A stretch of DNA of 29,422 nucleotides, taken from positions 1 to 29,422 of IMG/VR virus record IMGVR_UViG_3300021083_000346; one strand, given 5' to 3'. Of the stretch, positions 18,485 through 29,422 are shown one piece after another. A program made the position numbers and the translations under genes. The notes under the pieces are model-generated. The model searched no databases, was not told where the DNA came from, and saw only the letters and a list, made by a program, of their open reading frames with translations. Each line of letters opens with the position of its first letter. Positions within the stretch are counted from its first letter, which is position 1. This stretch comes from a virus.

Positions 18485-19219
18485 TTATGCCTGTGATGCC
18501 TTGCGCTCTGCGTACTTGCCTTTGCGTCCACCGGTGCTTACAGCGCTATCTAAGCTGAAGCCGACTGTCGCTGGCTTGCGGTCATGCAAGAAGCCAGTTA
18601 ACACTGCGGTTTCCTGACCTTTGGCGCATTTAATGCCAAGCTTGGAAACGCCGTAGGCAGCAACTTCTGATGTGTTCATTTCCGAATGGTCGAACACACC
18701 AACGAACTGAGAAAGCTTGCTGGCGAGCTGGTCACGCGCTGCGGCTTCTCGCATGATGGTTTTGAAGCCATCTTTTTCAAAGGTGCTGACGCGACTATCA
18801 AGACCTTTAATCGCCGAATCCATGGCGTCTTTTTTGTCATCTTCGTCTTTGGCATCCTTTTTCATATCGTCTTCCTCATCTTGGACGCCTTTGCCAGTGC
18901 CGGTTTTGGCGGGCGTTGTGGTTGGCTTGAAATCAGCGTTATCAGCTGCCGGATCCGTTGCTTCGGCGGTCTTTTCGCCATCTTCGCCGCCCTTGCCATG
19001 CTTCTCGATGAGCTTATTCATCTTTGCAATGGTAGGCATAATTTTTTGCATCATGGCATGAGCTTCTGCCATGGACATTTCTTTGTCGCCGCCTTCTTCG
19101 CCTTCGCCAGCGGGCTTGCCTTCTTTACCTTCGTCATTGTCTTTGACAGCCTTGTCTTTAGCTTCCTGATCGCCTTTAGCAGAGTTTTCGCCGCCTTTGT
19201 CGTCTTTTCCGTAAGCCAT
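18485..19219 (-). CDS. Nested in-frame scaffold protein (internal start)
   Basis: Inside the fusion, ATG 19219 (residue 360) is preceded by GCGAGGAGTTAAAGAAA, a strong ribosome site nine bases from the ATG. Translation from there gives a 244-aa protein that is exactly the scaffold part: AYGKDDKGGENS, a highly charged coil, MSMAEAHAMMQKIMPTIAKM helix, and a folded C-terminal end. The arrangement parallels lambda C/Nu3, where the protease gene contains a separately started scaffold. Inferred from the sequence; expression not demonstrated. Confidence 0.55.
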   Translation of the reverse strand: MAYGKDDKGGENSAKGDQEAKDKAVKDNDEGKEGKPAGEGEEGGDKEMSMAEAHAMMQKIMPTIAKMNKLIEKHGKGGEDGEKTAEATDPAADNADFKPTTTPAKTGTGKGVQDEEDDMKKDAKDEDDKKDAMDSAIKGLDSRVSTFEKDGFKTIMREAAARDQLASKLSQFVGVFDHSEMNTSEVAAYGVSKLGIKCAKGQETAVLTGFLHDRKPATVGFSLDSAVSTGGRKGKYAERKASQA

Positions 19220-20296
19220 TTTCTTTAACTCCTCGCTGTCCAGTGCCAAATCGAAATGATCAAACACCATGTGGTTATCTAAAACTGCTACATCATTTCG
19301 CCCTCTATCCACAAGAGCTAAATGATTGCCCCTTAATTTTGTTTGGACATATTCATAGAACTGGCCATCGAATGTTCCGGACTGTTTTACGAACTTGCAC
19401 CAATATCCTAAACTAAGTTCTCGCTTACCCATTCTTATCATATTCAAAAGTGTTTGGCTAAATATTTTTAGTGTTGCGTACAAAACGCCATTTTTGAAAA
19501 CGATGTTTTCTCCTGTAGCACCTTGAATTCCCTTCGCTTCCGGTGGTAAAAGTTTTTTCTCTTCTGCTCCAAGCATATCGTGCTCATCGACAAAGGGTAG
19601 CAACTTGAAACTCTCAATCGCTTCTGCATCTTCAATTTCTGACGCCGGCCGCAACACATAATAAATTTTATCGGGGATACATTCCTTGCTGATACTTTTT
19701 CCCAGATATGGGAAAATACCCGAGCGCGATATAGGATTATTTTCAATCGTGATGTAGCCGTTCTGGTCTTCCATGCGTGCGCTTGGAAAATCATCCATGC
19801 TGGATGACCGCTCCATAAATTCTGGCTTTCTGAATGTCGCTGAAACACCTGGGTGCAAAGGAATAGGCAAGCTATCGAGCTTTGCCCACATGTAGGCGCT
19901 GTGCTCGTTATTCAGGACGGGGCTAATAGGGATTTCATCGCATAAATAGGTAGTGAATTCCACATTTGGATTCTCACTGTAATCGATTTGCTGTATGTCG
20001 CCGGATGGCGCATAGCCGATTTCTTCCTGTGATTCGCGGCGTGCGGCTTGCTCCGGTGTTTCGCCATCTTCAATCTTTCCGCCAGGGAGCGCCCACATTT
20101 CTCCGGCATCGCGCCGCTTGAGTAAAAGAACCGAATCCTTATTGCGGTAAACTATACCGGATGCGCGGATAGCGGAATCTTTGCCCGTGGCCTCGTACGC
20201 AATAGCCACGGCTTGCTTGATGGGCTTGCCAGCTGCGCGCTCGGCTTCTATGTCATTCTTAAACGCAGCTTCGGTATTGGCGTGCTCAAGAGGCAT
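18485..20296 (-). CDS. Nudix - DUF2213 prohead protease - scaffold fusion
   Basis: A 603-aa multidomain head-assembly protein. Residues 1-40 carry the GKPIKQAVAIAYEATGK motif found in phage proteins. Residues 44-150 are a Nudix hydrolase with a complete box: G73, E79, R87-E88, E91-E92, G94. Residues about 180-345 match DUF2213, a capsid maturation protease family (SRSGIFPYLGKSI, YYVLRPASEIEDAEAIESFKLLPFVDEHDML); H239 and S295 (ELSLGYW) are likely catalytic. Residues 360-603 are a Lys/Asp/Glu-rich scaffold. DUF2213 proteins normally start near residue 167 here, so the Nudix part looks like an addition. The final region would be cleaved and expelled during maturation. The product of the Nudix reaction cannot be predicted. 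Confidence 0.8.
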   Translation of the reverse strand: MPLEHANTEAAFKNDIEAERAAGKPIKQAVAIAYEATGKDSAIRASGIVYRNKDSVLLLKRRDAGEMWALPGGKIEDGETPEQAARRESQEEIGYAPSGDIQQIDYSENPNVEFTTYLCDEIPISPVLNNEHSAYMWAKLDSLPIPLHPGVSATFRKPEFMERSSSMDDFPSARMEDQNGYITIENNPISRSGIFPYLGKSISKECIPDKIYYVLRPASEIEDAEAIESFKLLPFVDEHDMLGAEEKKLLPPEAKGIQGATGENIVFKNGVLYATLKIFSQTLLNMIRMGKRELSLGYWCKFVKQSGTFDGQFYEYVQTKLRGNHLALVDRGRNDVAVLDNHMVFDHFDLALDSEELKKMAYGKDDKGGENSAKGDQEAKDKAVKDNDEGKEGKPAGEGEEGGDKEMSMAEAHAMMQKIMPTIAKMNKLIEKHGKGGEDGEKTAEATDPAADNADFKPTTTPAKTGTGKGVQDEEDDMKKDAKDEDDKKDAMDSAIKGLDSRVSTFEKDGFKTIMREAAARDQLASKLSQFVGVFDHSEMNTSEVAAYGVSKLGIKCAKGQETAVLTGFLHDRKPATVGFSLDSAVSTGGRKGKYAERKASQA

Positions 20297-24858: not shown

Positions 24859-25270
24859 TCTCGATTTTTTCTAATTCTTGCCTGATAAAGTCGGGCGTTA
24901 AATTGACATTTTGGACATTGGCGGGAAGCGGATTCTCGGGGTCGCTGCCCATCAATGTAGTCTTTGTCCAGCCAGCACGCCGCTCGAGGAAGAATGTTAT
25001 CGCCGGCACGTTCATGAGGTTGATTGCTTGCAATAACTTGGCTGCGACAGCCGCTATTCCTGTGGCCAGCCCCTTCATCATAGCCGCCTCGAATCTAGGG
25101 TCGTCTATCTGTCTGCGATATAACGTTACTGGCGACATGCCAATGCAGCGCGCAACCTCATCTTTGGTCAGCCCGCGAGCGGCATAAGCCTCGACCTTGT
25201 CGTAATCAATTACGAGCTTTGGTCTTCCTGGCTTTCGTTTCGGTTTTACCTTCTGTGTTTTCTTTGCCAT
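24848..25270 (-). CDS. terS: Terminase small subunit-like DNA-binding protein
   Basis: A 140-aa protein from ATG 25270 ([19 protein letters not shown]); the longer open frame is rejected because the upstream part lies in the methyltransferase gene. A basic AT-hook-like KRKPGRPK stretch is followed by a helix-turn-helix ([23 protein letters not shown]) that resembles small terminase DNA-binding domains. The C-terminus ([17 protein letters not shown]) may contact the large subunit. It overlaps the methyltransferase by 65 bases and the large subunit by 11. Confidence 0.8.
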
Positions 25271-26468
25271 TTTCCAGTACCGCTTTCTTGCCTGTAAAGT
25301 TTTCCCAGCGCTTGACCGCGACGTCAACATAAGCAGGGCTGATTTCCATAGCATAGCATATCCGGCCTAGCATTTCAGCCGCTATAATGGTCGTGCCGGA
25401 TCCGCTGAATGGTTCAAAAATCAACTGGCCAGGTGACGACGATATCATCATCATGTTTTGGATTAGCTTGATCGGCTTTATAGTTGGATGACCATCTTCT
25501 TTCTCGCGCGCATATTCTAAGCATTTAGAATAGTTGGCATCTTTGACTGCATTATTCCATTTTGCAGATTTGCGAAAAAATAAAATATATTCAACATCTG
25601 GTCGATGCTGCCCTCCCAAGGGAATGGCATTCGGTTTCTTCCAAAATAAAATATTGAAATTGTAACCAGCCTCTACAGCCCATTTGAGATAATTAGGCAC
25701 TAAGTCTTTGTTGCAAAATACATAAGAATTCATAATGCCTTTATCAAAAATAGTGGGCAGCATGGCAAGAAATTGTTCAGGTTCAAAATCACATAAGTGT
25801 TTAATCGCTTCGCCCAGCTTCGCGGCAGCGCGGCCTATCGGTTGTTTACTCCCACCCTCTGCAGCCATATTATATGGCGGGTCTGTTATGCAAAGCTGGG
25901 CTATACCTCCATTTAATAATAAATCTAGTTGAGTTTGCGAAGAACTATCGCCACACATAAGTCGATGCCCCCCTATCTGCCATATATCGCCCGTTTTCGT
26001 AATTGGCTCTTCCGGTAATTCCGGTACCGCATCTGGATCCGTAAGCCCCTCTGTGCCGCCAGCATCAAGCAGCTTTGCTATTTCGTCCTCATCAAATCCC
26101 GTTAGCTCGAGATTATAGCCATCATCCATGAGCGCTTGCATCTCAAGCTTAAGCATATCGGCATCCCATCCAGCGGATAGCGCAAGCCGATTATCAGCCA
26201 GCACAAGGGCTTTGCGCTGAATTTCCGTCAAGCCGCTGATGACCATACACGGCACTTCTTTGAGCCGCAGCTTTCTCGCCGCGAGGACGCGCCCATGGCC
26301 GGCGATTAAAACATTATCATCGCCGATTAACACGGGATTTGTGAAGCCGAATTCTTGTATTGAAGCGGCTATCTGGGCAATCTGCGCTTCGGAATGGGTG
26401 CGGGAATTATTAACATACGGCACGAGCTCATCGAGCTTTTTAGACTTAAATTTAATAGGTGAAGCCAT
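25206..26468 (-). CDS. ParB-domain DNA methyltransferase (beta-class)
   Basis: A 420-aa protein from ATG 26468; an upstream ATG at 26501 is less likely because AAGGAG lies six bases from the 26468 start. Residues 5-95 are a ParB/Srx-like domain (ELVPYVNNSRTHSEAQI, IAGHGRVLAARKL, ALVLADNRLALSAGWD). Residues 160-395 are an amino-methyltransferase: catalytic DPPY at 196-199 comes before the SAM-binding FEPFSGSGTT at 351-360, the order of the beta class. It methylates adenine N6 or cytosine N4 in a target that cannot be read from sequence. The C-terminus is basic and repetitive. No restriction endonuclease is visible, so self-protection of phage DNA or regulation of packaging is likelier than restriction. 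Confidence 0.9.
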   Translation of the reverse strand: MASPIKFKSKKLDELVPYVNNSRTHSEAQIAQIAASIQEFGFTNPVLIGDDNVLIAGHGRVLAARKLRLKEVPCMVISGLTEIQRKALVLADNRLALSAGWDADMLKLEMQALMDDGYNLELTGFDEDEIAKLLDAGGTEGLTDPDAVPELPEEPITKTGDIWQIGGHRLMCGDSSSQTQLDLLLNGGIAQLCITDPPYNMAAEGGSKQPIGRAAAKLGEAIKHLCDFEPEQFLAMLPTIFDKGIMNSYVFCNKDLVPNYLKWAVEAGYNFNILFWKKPNAIPLGGQHRPDVEYILFFRKSAKWNNAVKDANYSKCLEYAREKEDGHPTIKPIKLIQNMMMISSSPGQLIFEPFSGSGTTIIAAEMLGRICYAMEISPAYVDVAVKRWENFTGKKAVLENGKENTEGKTETKARKTKARN

Positions 26469-26517
26469 GGGTTCTCCTTGAAGATATATCAAAACTATCA
26501 ATATTCCTCAAAATAAC

Positions 26518-26544
26518 ACTATAGCAATTAAAATGCTATTGCTA
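26518..26544 (-). promoter_or_regulatory. Candidate late-operon promoter with TAGCAAT/ATTGCTA operator
   Basis: Read on the minus strand, TTTAGC is followed after 17 bases by TGC-TATAGT, an extended -10 (TATAGT at 26523-26518). The 7-bp arms TAGCAAT (26522-26528) and ATTGCTA (26538-26544) form an inverted repeat that covers both promoter elements. The predicted start is near 26511, about 43 bases before the methyltransferase ATG. A related arrangement stands before the plus-strand gene at 29221. Confidence 0.45.
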
Positions 26545-26547
26545 AAA

Positions 26548-26761
26548 CTCAGTCAGTCTCAGTCAGTCTCAGTCAGTGACAACATATTGATATTTAATAA
26601 AATGACCGAGATGACTGAGTATTTAGCTAAAAGAGTCTAAAAATCCCCAAAACACAAAAAACGGCACAATGTCCTGTTTTGGGTAATATAGGAAGTTCCG
26701 GTCAGTCTCAGTCAGTGCGTATATAATATTAATATAAAATAAAAACTTAAGGCTGACTGAG
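26548..26761. repeat. CTCAGTCA box cluster, origin or operator candidate
   Basis: Three perfect tandem copies of CTCAGTCAGT (26548-26577), one separate copy (26707-26716) and two inverted TGACTGAG copies (26612-26619, 26754-26761) lie in the gap between primase and methyltransferase. AT-rich stretches lie between the boxes (26585-26600, 26720-26745). Iteron-like boxes plus AT-rich DNA beside a primase gene suggest a replication origin; a regulator-binding array is the alternative. Confidence 0.5.
26639..26683 (-). terminator. Candidate intrinsic terminator
   Basis: On the minus strand CCCAAAACA pairs perfectly with TGTTTTGGG (9 bp, 20-nt loop; arms 26675-26683 and 26646-26654), followed by GATTTTTAG. 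The stem is A-T rich and the loop long, so strength is uncertain. It would stop transcripts from the primase before the late promoter. Confidence 0.35.
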
Positions 26762-26769
26762 TCGCCTTA
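26741..26769 (-). terminator. Candidate intrinsic terminator after primase
   Basis: On the minus strand TAAGGC pairs with GCCTTA, with further inner pairing across GACT/AGTC, followed by AAGTTTTTATTTT. It lies about 40 bases after the primase stop. It also contains one CTCAGTCA box, so the arms may serve double duty. Confidence 0.4.
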
Positions 26770-26808
26770 TTTCACATATTAAAAATGTATAATAGAAAAA
26801 TGGGGAAA

Positions 26809-28932
26809 TTAGAAATCCAGCGGCGTACTATTATTGACGCCATTATAAATATATTTGCCAATATTGAACAGGCGGCTGCCAAATCGGTCACGGCGCATAG
26901 GAACGCCACGAGCGCGGAGATAGTTGGCGATGATACGGGTTTCGCGCTGGCTAATGTTTTTAAGGCCTATGCCTTCGGCTATCTGGGTTGATGTATTCCA
27001 TTCGGTGGAGCGCCTGTTGTCGATATCGTATTTGGCATTTATCATTTCATGTAGCGGCTCGATTTGCTGATGCTCTTTATTGATACGCGCAACATGGGCG
27101 CTTTCATCCGGTAACAGCTTCCAGTTTTCGCTATGGGTTTCAATAAGGTCTAAAACTTCCGCCCAAAGCTGCTGCATATCGATATCGTGATAGCTGTCGA
27201 TAGCCGTACATGGGATTGTCCAGAAGCGGCGATTACCAGCTGTATCCTGTAAATAAAAATCTTGATCAACGCTGGCAATGAGTCCGGTTCGGCGGGGATA
27301 TTTCTTGTCGCCAACACCATACGGTCGGCGCATAGTGTCGTGGTCACGGGTAATAAAGGTTTTTACAGCTTGTAAATCCGCGCGGTTAAATGTGGCGCCA
27401 ATTTCGCCGAGTTCGCATATCCAATAGCTGATGACCTGGCTTACGGTATCTTTATCCTTCGGATCCACCATGGCATCGGTGCGTATAAGTTCCGATCTGA
27501 TATTCTTGGGCAAAAGCTTTTTGACCCACCATGTTTTGCCTAAATTCTGTGGCCCCTGCAGCACAAGGCATCCGGCGGAGTCAATGCCATTATATAGCGC
27601 CATGCACATTGCTGTGATGAGCCAGCGGCGGATTAAAAGTTCTTTTGCTTCATGCTCTGGGCTAGTGATGGTGTCATAAAATTCCGGCAAGCGGCTGACC
27701 TTATCCCATGGGCGGCTGCGAACCCAATTCAGGACGGGATTGTATTGGTTTTCATCGGCAATACGCATGAGATACATAGTGTGGCCATCAGTCGGCAACT
27801 TCCATTCCTTCATATAGCTGTAAATGACAGCCAGTGCGGATTCTTCGGCATTTTCGATGCTGAATACTTCGTTCGGTATCACATGCTCAACGCGCTTCGA
27901 AATTACATTGTATCGGCACTGGATATTATAATAACTTAGCAAATCCCGCATGTTTTGCAGCGTGGCCAGTGCGCGGTTATTGTTTACCGGATCCATGTGC
28001 GTCAACAACAGGGCTATGCGCTCGGCACTGATTTGCGGCTGGGTATTTTTTACCTGAAGTTCATTATCTTTGCCTTCTTGTAAAAATTGCTCGGTTGGGA
28101 AATTATCGGGCGCATCGCCCAAGTCCCAGCCTTCCTCGACGCCATCCGGCAGCTTGACGATATGCAAATCTGGCAGCATCTTTTTAATTCCGGTTGCCGC
28201 GATATTCCCAGGCTGGTCGGCATCCGGCCATATCCATGTATAGCGGCTCTTGAGCGGCGTCCAATCGGTTCCCTTAATGGCTTCAGCGCCACCGCACCAG
28301 CCAACAACAACCCAATCCGGCAAGAGCAGCTGAGCCCGTTCTGCTTTCTTTTCACCCTCGACAATGAGCACCTTGGCATCTGGACGCGCGAGGAGAGCGG
28401 GGAGTCTGTAGATTGGCGAAGCGCATGGCCATTTCTTCCATTTCCATATACATGTACCATCACCGCGCTTCCAGAATGTGCGGGGAATGAATTGCTTTTT
28501 CTCATTTGGATTCGGTGGAGGGAAGCGGCATATATAGCCAACGATTTTCCCATCCATACCGCGATATTCATAGACCGCTTCCGGCTTGCCAAATTTGGAA
28601 TGGGCTGGGATTGGCGGGGATTCAACGCCGCCGAGATAAGTATCCTCCGCCAGAGTGTCTTTTGAGGTGCTGAAATGCTTGGCGGCTTCGGATTGCTTTA
28701 CGTCATGGATGGCAGCATATAGGCTGATTAGGTCAGCTGAGCCTTTGCCGCTGGCAAAATCGCGCCATATTCCGGTGTCTATATTGATGCTCAAGGAATG
28801 GCCAGCTTCGCCTTGTAAACTGCCAACCACGAATTCTCTCCCCTTTAATTTTCCCTGCGGAAACCACTCGCTTAAATAGCGCGGCGCATCAGCCAATAGG
28901 CGGTCAGCAATTGCCTTGAAGTTTATCGCCAT
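26809..28932 (-). CDS. Primase-helicase with TOPRIM and VirE-type P-loop domains
   Basis: A 707-aa replication protein. Residues 20-90 form a primase-like N-terminal part (GIWRDFASGKGSADLISLYAA). Residues 185-275 are TOPRIM-like (VLIVEGEKKAERA with E192, WPDADQPG with D237/D239). Residues 400-640 are a VirE/SF3-like ATPase: Walker A GPQNLGKT at 460-467, then ELGEIGATFNRADLQAVKTFI, RRPYGVGDKKYPRRTGLIAS and DTAGNRRFWTIP. The enzyme would prime and unwind phage DNA. The start has AGGG about nine bases upstream. It is separated from the late operon by a repeat-rich gap and transcribed in the same direction. Confidence 0.85.
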   Translation of the reverse strand: MAINFKAIADRLLADAPRYLSEWFPQGKLKGREFVVGSLQGEAGHSLSINIDTGIWRDFASGKGSADLISLYAAIHDVKQSEAAKHFSTSKDTLAEDTYLGGVESPPIPAHSKFGKPEAVYEYRGMDGKIVGYICRFPPPNPNEKKQFIPRTFWKRGDGTCIWKWKKWPCASPIYRLPALLARPDAKVLIVEGEKKAERAQLLLPDWVVVGWCGGAEAIKGTDWTPLKSRYTWIWPDADQPGNIAATGIKKMLPDLHIVKLPDGVEEGWDLGDAPDNFPTEQFLQEGKDNELQVKNTQPQISAERIALLLTHMDPVNNNRALATLQNMRDLLSYYNIQCRYNVISKRVEHVIPNEVFSIENAEESALAVIYSYMKEWKLPTDGHTMYLMRIADENQYNPVLNWVRSRPWDKVSRLPEFYDTITSPEHEAKELLIRRWLITAMCMALYNGIDSAGCLVLQGPQNLGKTWWVKKLLPKNIRSELIRTDAMVDPKDKDTVSQVISYWICELGEIGATFNRADLQAVKTFITRDHDTMRRPYGVGDKKYPRRTGLIASVDQDFYLQDTAGNRRFWTIPCTAIDSYHDIDMQQLWAEVLDLIETHSENWKLLPDESAHVARINKEHQQIEPLHEMINAKYDIDNRRSTEWNTSTQIAEGIGLKNISQRETRIIANYLRARGVPMRRDRFGSRLFNIGKYIYNGVNNSTPLDF

Positions 28933-29004: not shown

Positions 29005-29143
29005 CCTCCCGTAATTATAGATAAATCAAGCGAAATATAGGGGAAAATCATAAAAAGCTATCCTTAACTAGCTATATCAGCTTTATAAGTTCTTTATATC
29101 TTTGGCAAGCAAAAAGATTGCTAAAATATATTCAAAATAGCTG
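29005..29143. other. AT-rich divergent intergenic region, no gene seen
   Basis: Together with the leader this makes a 288-base gap between the divergent primase and Cys-rich genes. It is AT-rich, contains an extra ATTGCTA copy (29117-29123) and several AGCTAT words, and shows no convincing ORF, tRNA or clear minus-strand -35/-10 pair. The primase promoter should lie here. Confidence 0.4.
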
Positions 29144-29171
29144 TTGCAATTAGCAATTAGATTGCTATTGT
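29144..29171 (+). promoter_or_regulatory. Candidate promoter with perfect TAGCAAT-TAG-ATTGCTA operator
   Basis: TTGCAA (29144-29149) and TGC-TATTGT (-10 at 29166-29171) are separated by 16 bases. The spacer and -10 are covered by a perfect 17-bp palindrome, TAGCAATTAGATTGCTA (29151-29167). The predicted start near 29178 leaves a leader of about 43 bases with AAGGAAA before the ATG at 29221. The box sequence is shared with 26522-26544, suggesting one regulator for both promoters. Confidence 0.5.
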
Positions 29172-29220: not shown

Positions 29221-29422
29221 ATGTTGAAATGGATCAAAGACGAAAATGGAATCGAATGGGCTATTGACGACAAAGGAAACAAATGCAGTGAAAGTTATTT
29301 CGGCACAAAAGAGCTTGCAGAAAAAGCTTTAAAAAGTTTAAAAAACTGTGAAAATTGTATCAATTGCTCGCATTGCTCGCATTGCTCGCGTTGCTCGGGT
29401 TGCTCGGATTGCTCGGATTGCT
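29221..29422 (+). CDS. Cys-x-x triplet repeat protein, 3' end outside window
   Basis: The only plus-strand gene, with AAGGAAA seven bases before ATG; 67 residues are visible. Residues 1-42 form a soluble charged segment (MLKWIKDENGIEWAIDDKG, YFGTKELAEKALKSLK) that resembles a small sheet plus helix. From C43 every third residue is Cys (43, 46, 49 ... 67), first as CENCIN, then CSH, CSH, CSR, CSG, CSD, CSD. No signal peptide or membrane segment. I do not recognise a named domain. The spacing could give a Cys-lined beta-solenoid or a multi-metal cluster; both are speculation. It is transcribed away from the virion operon under a probable repressor site, so an early or accessory role is plausible. 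Confidence 0.7.
   Translation, partial: MLKWIKDENGIEWAIDDKGNKCSESYFGTKELAEKALKSLKNCENCINCSHCSHCSRCSGCSDCSDC
29365..29422 (+). repeat. 9-bp tandem coding repeat
   Basis: Six consecutive copies of TGCTCGNNT (CAT, CAT, CGT, GGT, GAT, GAT at the variable codon) and the start of a seventh run to the window edge. Each copy encodes Cys-Ser-x. The first two codons are invariant while the third varies, consistent with recent expansion by slippage or recombination and change at one exposed position. Confidence 0.85.

Follow-up and report, generated by a model that had tools for sequence, protein, structure and literature searches.

The CSx-repeat gene at the right end of the record

The window, i.e., the whole stretch of DNA that was analyzed, comprises the 29,422 bases of a viral record. 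An open reading frame on its plus strand runs into the right end without a stop codon (Table 1), and the translation of 29221-29421 is MLKWIKDENGIEWAIDDKGNKCSESYFGTKELAEKALKSLKNCENCINCSHCSHCSRCSGCSDCSDC. Cys is located at position 22 of this product and then at positions 43, 46, 49, 52, 55, 58, 61, 64 and 67, which is the ladder of nine Cys at every third residue from residue 43 described in the original prediction. This run is the longest of period 3 in the record, compared to a maximum of 4 in codon-shuffled records.

The array starts at 29347 with the units TGTGAAAAT and TGTATCAAT, followed by six TGCTCGNNT units. The third codons of these six are, in order, CAT, CAT, CGT, GGT, GAT and GAT, so that the predicted variation at the third codon alone, next to a shared TGC TCG, is exact. 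Tandem Repeats Finder reported the region 29363-29422 with a period of 9, 6.7 copies and a match of 94%.

Table 1. Positions of the CSx-repeat gene, its parts and the adjoining features in the window.
Feature	Position	Strand	Remarks
Primase/helicase gene	26809..28932	-	Context; divergent from and adjoining the CSx gene
Operator-like palindrome AGCAAAAAGATTGCT, 15 bp	29108..29122	.	Divergent CSx/primase intergenic region
Second operator-like palindrome AGCAATTAGATTGCT, 15 bp	29152..29166	.	44 bp from the first, start to start
CSx-repeat gene, 5′ part, 67 codons	29221..29422	+	63 related loci; contig end falls inside the array
N-terminal cap domain, residues 1-42	29221..29346	+	Predicted beta-beta-alpha in relative L027 (pLDDT ~90)
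Start of the 9-bp/Cys-x-x array: cap units CEN and CIN, six TGC-TCG-NNT, cut seventh	29347..29422	+	Codon reading, Tandem Repeats Finder

Genomic surroundings and operator-like sites

All other convincing genes are located on the minus strand, among them primase/helicase, ParB-methyltransferase, terminase, portal, head and tail sheath genes, which leaves the CSx gene as the sole convincing plus-strand gene, as had been stated. The operator-like palindrome noticed in front of it was found in two copies (Table 1), and the pattern occurs 16 times in the record compared to 5.8 expected matches. The ParB-methyltransferase gene is preceded, at a distance of 22 bp, by a copy with one mismatch (AGCAATTAAAATGCT, 26523-26537), and because of this copy one repressor may govern both this gene and the CSx/primase intergenic region. 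The gene itself (25206-26501) encodes a DNA methyltransferase fused to a ParB-like nuclease domain.

Between the primase and ParB-methyltransferase genes, iteron-like repeats were observed at 26548-26577, ~26700-26717 and 26750-26770, comprising three perfect CTCAGTCAGT copies, another GTCAGTCTCAGTCAGT and inverted GACTGAGT copies. They possibly represent a putative replication origin or ParB-type binding site. Further to the left, the long ORF at 18485-20296 combines, as judged by eye, an N-terminal Nudix hydrolase-like part (GGKIEDGETPEQAARRESQEEIGY) with a phage head-maturation-type protein.

For the relatives of the CSx gene, 143 downstream genes were scanned. YqaJ (9), ERF (5), AAA_24 (4), RecT (2), DUF669 (2) and SSB (1) were identified, and a sliding clamp and methyltransferases also recur. 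YqaJ was present in only 9 of 40 records, in about six of the nine within ~4 kb of the array gene according to the coordinates. From its gene content, the downstream neighborhood reads as a typical early DNA-metabolism region.

Relatives and domain architecture

The product of 29221-29421 matched 63 IMG/VR loci with an identity of up to 68% over cap and array. In 17 of the 63 related viral contigs the sequence likewise breaks within the array, and one related contig has both of its ends in the array (L050 and L059). The cut at the right end is thus attributed to an assembly effect of the repeat. No relatives of the primase by which the 29,422-nt record could be extended rightwards were found.

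What the frame 29221-29422 contains is the 5′ end of a gene that is widespread among phages and is cut off here. A frame closing just past the edge, which had been named as a refutation, is not what the relatives display, since complete ones continue. They consist of a small N-terminal cap, 4-59 Cys-Ser-x (CSx) units and, at the C-terminus, a helical domain that stays constant. The cap consensus is TWIxDxNGNRCSVEYFGSxEAAxxALDSLKNC, and two further cap types exist. In the alignment of relatives the C-terminal domain carries the motif WHTCxTTHCRAGW / WHxCxxTHCRAGW; the domain is present in the complete loci that have the same cap type as the truncated gene, whereas two loci with different caps (L045 and L057) have different C-terminal ends.

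Used as a query, the C-terminal domain matched 453 viral stretches and 36 loci in bacterial genomes. The bacterial genomes are those of Alphaproteobacteria, Bacteroidota, Xanthomonas, Acidobacteria, Patescibacteria and others. Two strains with the gene in their genomes, as candidate prophage carriers, are Rhizorhapis suberifaciens DSM 7465 and Kaistia dalseonensis B6-8.

No family was found for the C-terminal domain in Pfam or NCBIfam. PHROG 15341 covers the cap-plus-array end (E 4.7e-7) and PHROG 31265 the C-terminal domain (E down to 5e-35); the product of 29221-29421, being a cap followed by (CSx)n, corresponds to the former and to the 63 loci. Both PHROGs resemble the ends of the CSx protein, but they are phage clusters without a function and without a description of the repeat, its variability or its swap with pentapeptide repeats. 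A full-text search of the open literature with peptide strings yielded no paper describing the CSx repeat, and the matches to "cysteine-rich repeat" were unrelated eukaryotic modules. The protein can hence be called unrecognized, as originally proposed, with regard to Pfam, NCBIfam and the searchable literature, but not with regard to the PHROG clusters containing both of its ends. A fixed known domain with an assigned role was likewise not encountered among the homologues, to which no role is assigned. The PADLOC-DB models gave no match to the product of 29221-29421, the L027 protein or the C-terminal domain, and the reading as a known anti-phage defense protein was rejected.

Exchange of the array with pentapeptide and other repeats

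Upstream of the C-terminal domain, CSx repeats were found in 15 genome and 64 viral loci and pentapeptide repeats in 14 genome and 8 viral loci. The viral set comprises the best 80 of the 453 stretches, and some of its loci are the same contigs as among the 63 loci of the array search. PF00805 was confirmed in five of seven tested proteins with the C-terminal domain. One confirmed case is a plasmid-borne, phage-like protein of Bordetella bronchiseptica, annotated as pentapeptide repeat. For the product of 29221-29421, where the unit is three residues, no PF00805 match was found.

An Ala/Trp/Arg-rich repeat (L101:5611-6228) and a leucine-rich-like repeat (L089:2-427) were also observed in front of the C-terminal domain, indicating that more than two repeat types are exchanged. 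A profile comparison detected no relation between the CSx cap and the pentapeptide cap, and homology of the two was rejected. Since the caps are not detectably related, cap and array appear to be swapped together while the C-terminal domain remains. As relatives in other phages and prophages carry pentapeptide repeats instead of the CSx array, the triplet array takes the place of a solenoid.

PF00805 proteins such as MfpA and Qnr fold into a right-handed quadrilateral beta-helix and contain an uninterrupted run of eight or more A(D/N)LXX pentapeptides, whose A and L face inward in known structures. They combine a short tandem unit with invariant inward and variable outward residues, as the CSx array probably does. 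Their unit has five residues and an A/L pair, compared to three residues and one invariant Cys in the CSx protein. In the pentapeptide relatives, 13 silent variants were counted in 1655 codons, whereas the residue was changed 346 times at positions 2, 4 and 5, 4 times at L and never at A. The CSx protein behaves like the pentapeptide repeat proteins, but by the unit that defines them it is not a member.

Variation within and between arrays

Copy number and variable codons were compared among relatives, which had been suggested as a check. The copy number ranges between 4 and 59, the x position varies and silent sites are nearly fixed. In 118 distinct arrays, the Cys register is kept at 2901 of 2905 interior positions, and the second position is Ser in 2642 units. 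The x position is mainly occupied by D (1086), G (833) and R (708), followed by Y, S, N and H.

Minor silent variants within an array were found in 1.8% of the Ser codons (46 out of 2556), 0.7% of the Cys codons (21 out of 2808) and 0.5% of the third bases of x (13 out of 2780). In comparison, the x residue differs from the commonest one of its array in 54% of the units (1527 out of 2808). Such frozen silent sites beside a variable x are not explained by neutral drift and require selection for a diverse surface or shuffling of units. The Ser codon is constant inside one array and is TCG, TCC, TCT, TCA, AGC or AGT across arrays, showing that Ser is kept by selection on the protein. As this codon differs between phages, the 9-mer is unlikely to act at the level of DNA.

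The order of x is near random, and block duplications were detected in 25 of 93 arrays; arrays can also be garbled by short-read assembly. Two Arg at x are less often spaced by exactly eight units than expected: 96 such pairs were counted instead of 134 (z -4.5), and each half of the data shows the deficit.

In one contig, the whole CSx gene is tandemly duplicated (L174:2443-4239). The end domains of these paralogues are identical at 103 of 105 and 336 of 342 nt (98%), whereas their arrays of 45 and 52 units have an aligned identity of 77.8%, vs 76.7% for shuffled units. Two other contigs (L026/L030) are 100% identical over 3123 bp of flanks and differ in their arrays, for which an assembly error is possible. 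A third pair (L032/L033) has flanks of 99.7% identity and the same array, hence the turnover of arrays is not instant. The array is a hypervariable module in which unit number and x order change much faster than the flanks. The idea of a modular, fast-evolving Cys-ladder protein is borne out by the architectures, the variable arrays and the contigs L174 and L026/L030.

Structure prediction and fold

Modeled alone with AlphaFold2, the C-terminal domain is helical with a pLDDT of 92.6. In the full-length L027 protein the cap reached a pLDDT of ~90 and the array one of ~30; the first array residues were joined by weak bridges with a spacing of 12 residues. The fold search in the PDB gave no match for the C-terminal domain and none for the full-length model, the array of which is poorly modeled; in a viral structure library, the relative from phage FL-1 was the sole confident match of the C-terminal domain. 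The proposed HMM searches and structure prediction thus placed both ends in PHROGs and left the array at low pLDDT and the C-terminal domain without a PDB fold.

The only clear match of the array to the sequence of a solved structure was 1EZG (E 3.7e-5 with the L035 array and E 0.0056 with the profile), which is short, composition-biased and a likeness of spacing rather than homology. Artificial control sequences with Cys at every fourth or every second residue did not match 1EZG in phmmer. In the 12-residue coil of the beetle antifreeze protein, positions 2, 5, 8 and 11 face inward and the inward Cys form disulfides (PMC8038014). The Tenebrio-type antifreeze protein 1EZG (TCTxSxNCxxAx) is comparable to CSx in that Cys is found at multiples of three; every third of its residues points inward, as would also be the case in a CSx solenoid. 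It differs in being a secreted, disulfide-bonded, ice-binding insect protein with Cys at only half of the inward positions, whereas the phage protein has cap domains, no secretion signal by eye and no sign of common descent with it.

The array probably folds as a very thin right-handed beta-solenoid with ~12 residues (four triplets) per turn. Such a compact solenoid, one of the two forms originally envisaged, is favored by the pentapeptide repeats that precede this C-terminal domain in relatives and by the period-3 spacing shared with 1EZG, whereas the low pLDDT of the array speaks against it. A charge-stacking test did not reveal a turn of four triplets. The same test fails on pentapeptide arrays of known geometry, which give no clear signal, and the derivation of coil geometry from charge spacing was dropped.

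Possible role of the array and alternative explanations

The best explanation, for which the chances are considered to be about even, is a thin Cys-cored solenoid with a reshuffled x pattern in an early phage protein that probably serves variable binding. Cys would be located in the core and Ser on the surface, with x exposed. Recombination between 9-bp units would reorder the D/G/R pattern, perhaps assisted by the neighboring annealing and exonuclease genes, and selection for diversity would act on the reshuffled pattern. The earlier suggestion that x forms a recognition surface thus agrees with a variable and probably exposed residue, while recognition itself is a proposal.

The weakest step is the role, which is held with low confidence: the protein might act early and inside the cell as a binding rod for a host partner that itself changes. 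The rod would be anchored by the constant C-terminal domain, and its surface would vary to engage or escape that partner, e.g., a defense factor. Equally tentative is the view that the array represents a novel class of tripeptide solenoids, the core of which would consist of thiols throughout (approximately four inward Cys per turn), and acts as a combinatorial recognition rod. Its 9-bp units, mainly of three types with D (negative), G (neutral) or R (positive), would be permuted without reverse transcriptase, the recombined units would give rapidly renewed charge patterns, and the module would be interchangeable with pentapeptide solenoids.

Alternatively, the period-3 Cys could bind metal, with approximately four inward thiols per turn, or form disulfides, making the array a metal sink, redox buffer or electron relay, as had also been considered in the original prediction. 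The nearly invariant Cys (2901 of 2905), the disulfides in the beetle fold of the same spacing (PMC8038014) and an invariant H-x-C-x3-H-C cluster in the C-terminal domain are in line with this. However, A and L are equally invariant in the pentapeptide arrays, so that invariance alone is no sign of chemistry, and the varied x is left unexplained. As pentapeptide arrays with few or no Cys occupy the same place in front of the C-terminal domain, a thiol-based activity cannot be what the family as a whole has conserved. For the CSx type such chemistry may be of importance, and overall this explanation is regarded as unlikely. The exchange of repeat types in one position, together with the copy number of 4-59, would also suit a structural or spacer rod, in which the array sets only the distance of the end domains and variation at x is merely tolerated. 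Tolerance predicts similar variability of silent and replacement sites, in contrast to the silent variation of ~1% and the more than 50% at x. In addition, x is restricted to D, G, R and a few polar residues, and His is rare although a single step leads from GAY or CGY to CAY, making a mere spacer quite unlikely.

The block duplications and the frameshifted C-terminal domain of the FL-1 copy would be expected if a dispensable gene carried a minisatellite, selfish or neutral, made by slippage alone. But slippage alone would homogenize x together with the silent sites, more than 100 arrays retain both the frame and the Cys register, Ser persists whether encoded by TCN or by AGY, and both end domains are conserved; this origin appears improbable. 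The limitation of the variation to defined codons is reminiscent of directed mutation of x codons in the target of a diversity-generating retroelement. At base 1, however, the changes are mainly G/C, at base 2 mainly A/G, and they span dozens of units; moreover, no reverse transcriptase (PF00078) was found in the 40 records, whereas control genomes matched. A retroelement is accordingly disfavored and seems extremely improbable.

If the preferred reading of a reshuffled solenoid is right, these phages diversify a protein without a dedicated mutator, the exposed residue being permuted in 9-bp steps with a fixed core. A three-residue unit would join the short list of solenoid repeats and provide a natural case for probing the minimum thickness of a beta-solenoid, and the array would point to a host partner that drives the variation. 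There is a real chance that the repeat may prove to be a new class.

Comparison with the Gracilibacteria repeat and annotation of the family

A PTD tripeptide-repeat surface protein with a variable 9-bp array that breaks assemblies was described for Gracilibacteria (PMC6851277). The CSx array is similar in being a variable 9-bp tripeptide array that disrupts assembly. The two differ in what is conserved: the Gracilibacteria repeat keeps its peptide while its nucleotides change (PMC6851277), whereas the phage arrays keep their silent sites and change their peptide.

The array explains why the assemblies of these phages break at the CSx gene, and because of these breaks the family is probably under-counted and mis-annotated. 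The annotation of phage FL-1 (L065, KY421186.2 26567-27271) reads the CSx gene in the wrong frame and gives its product as an Ala-Pro-Val repeat protein; a frameshift is also located within the C-terminal domain.
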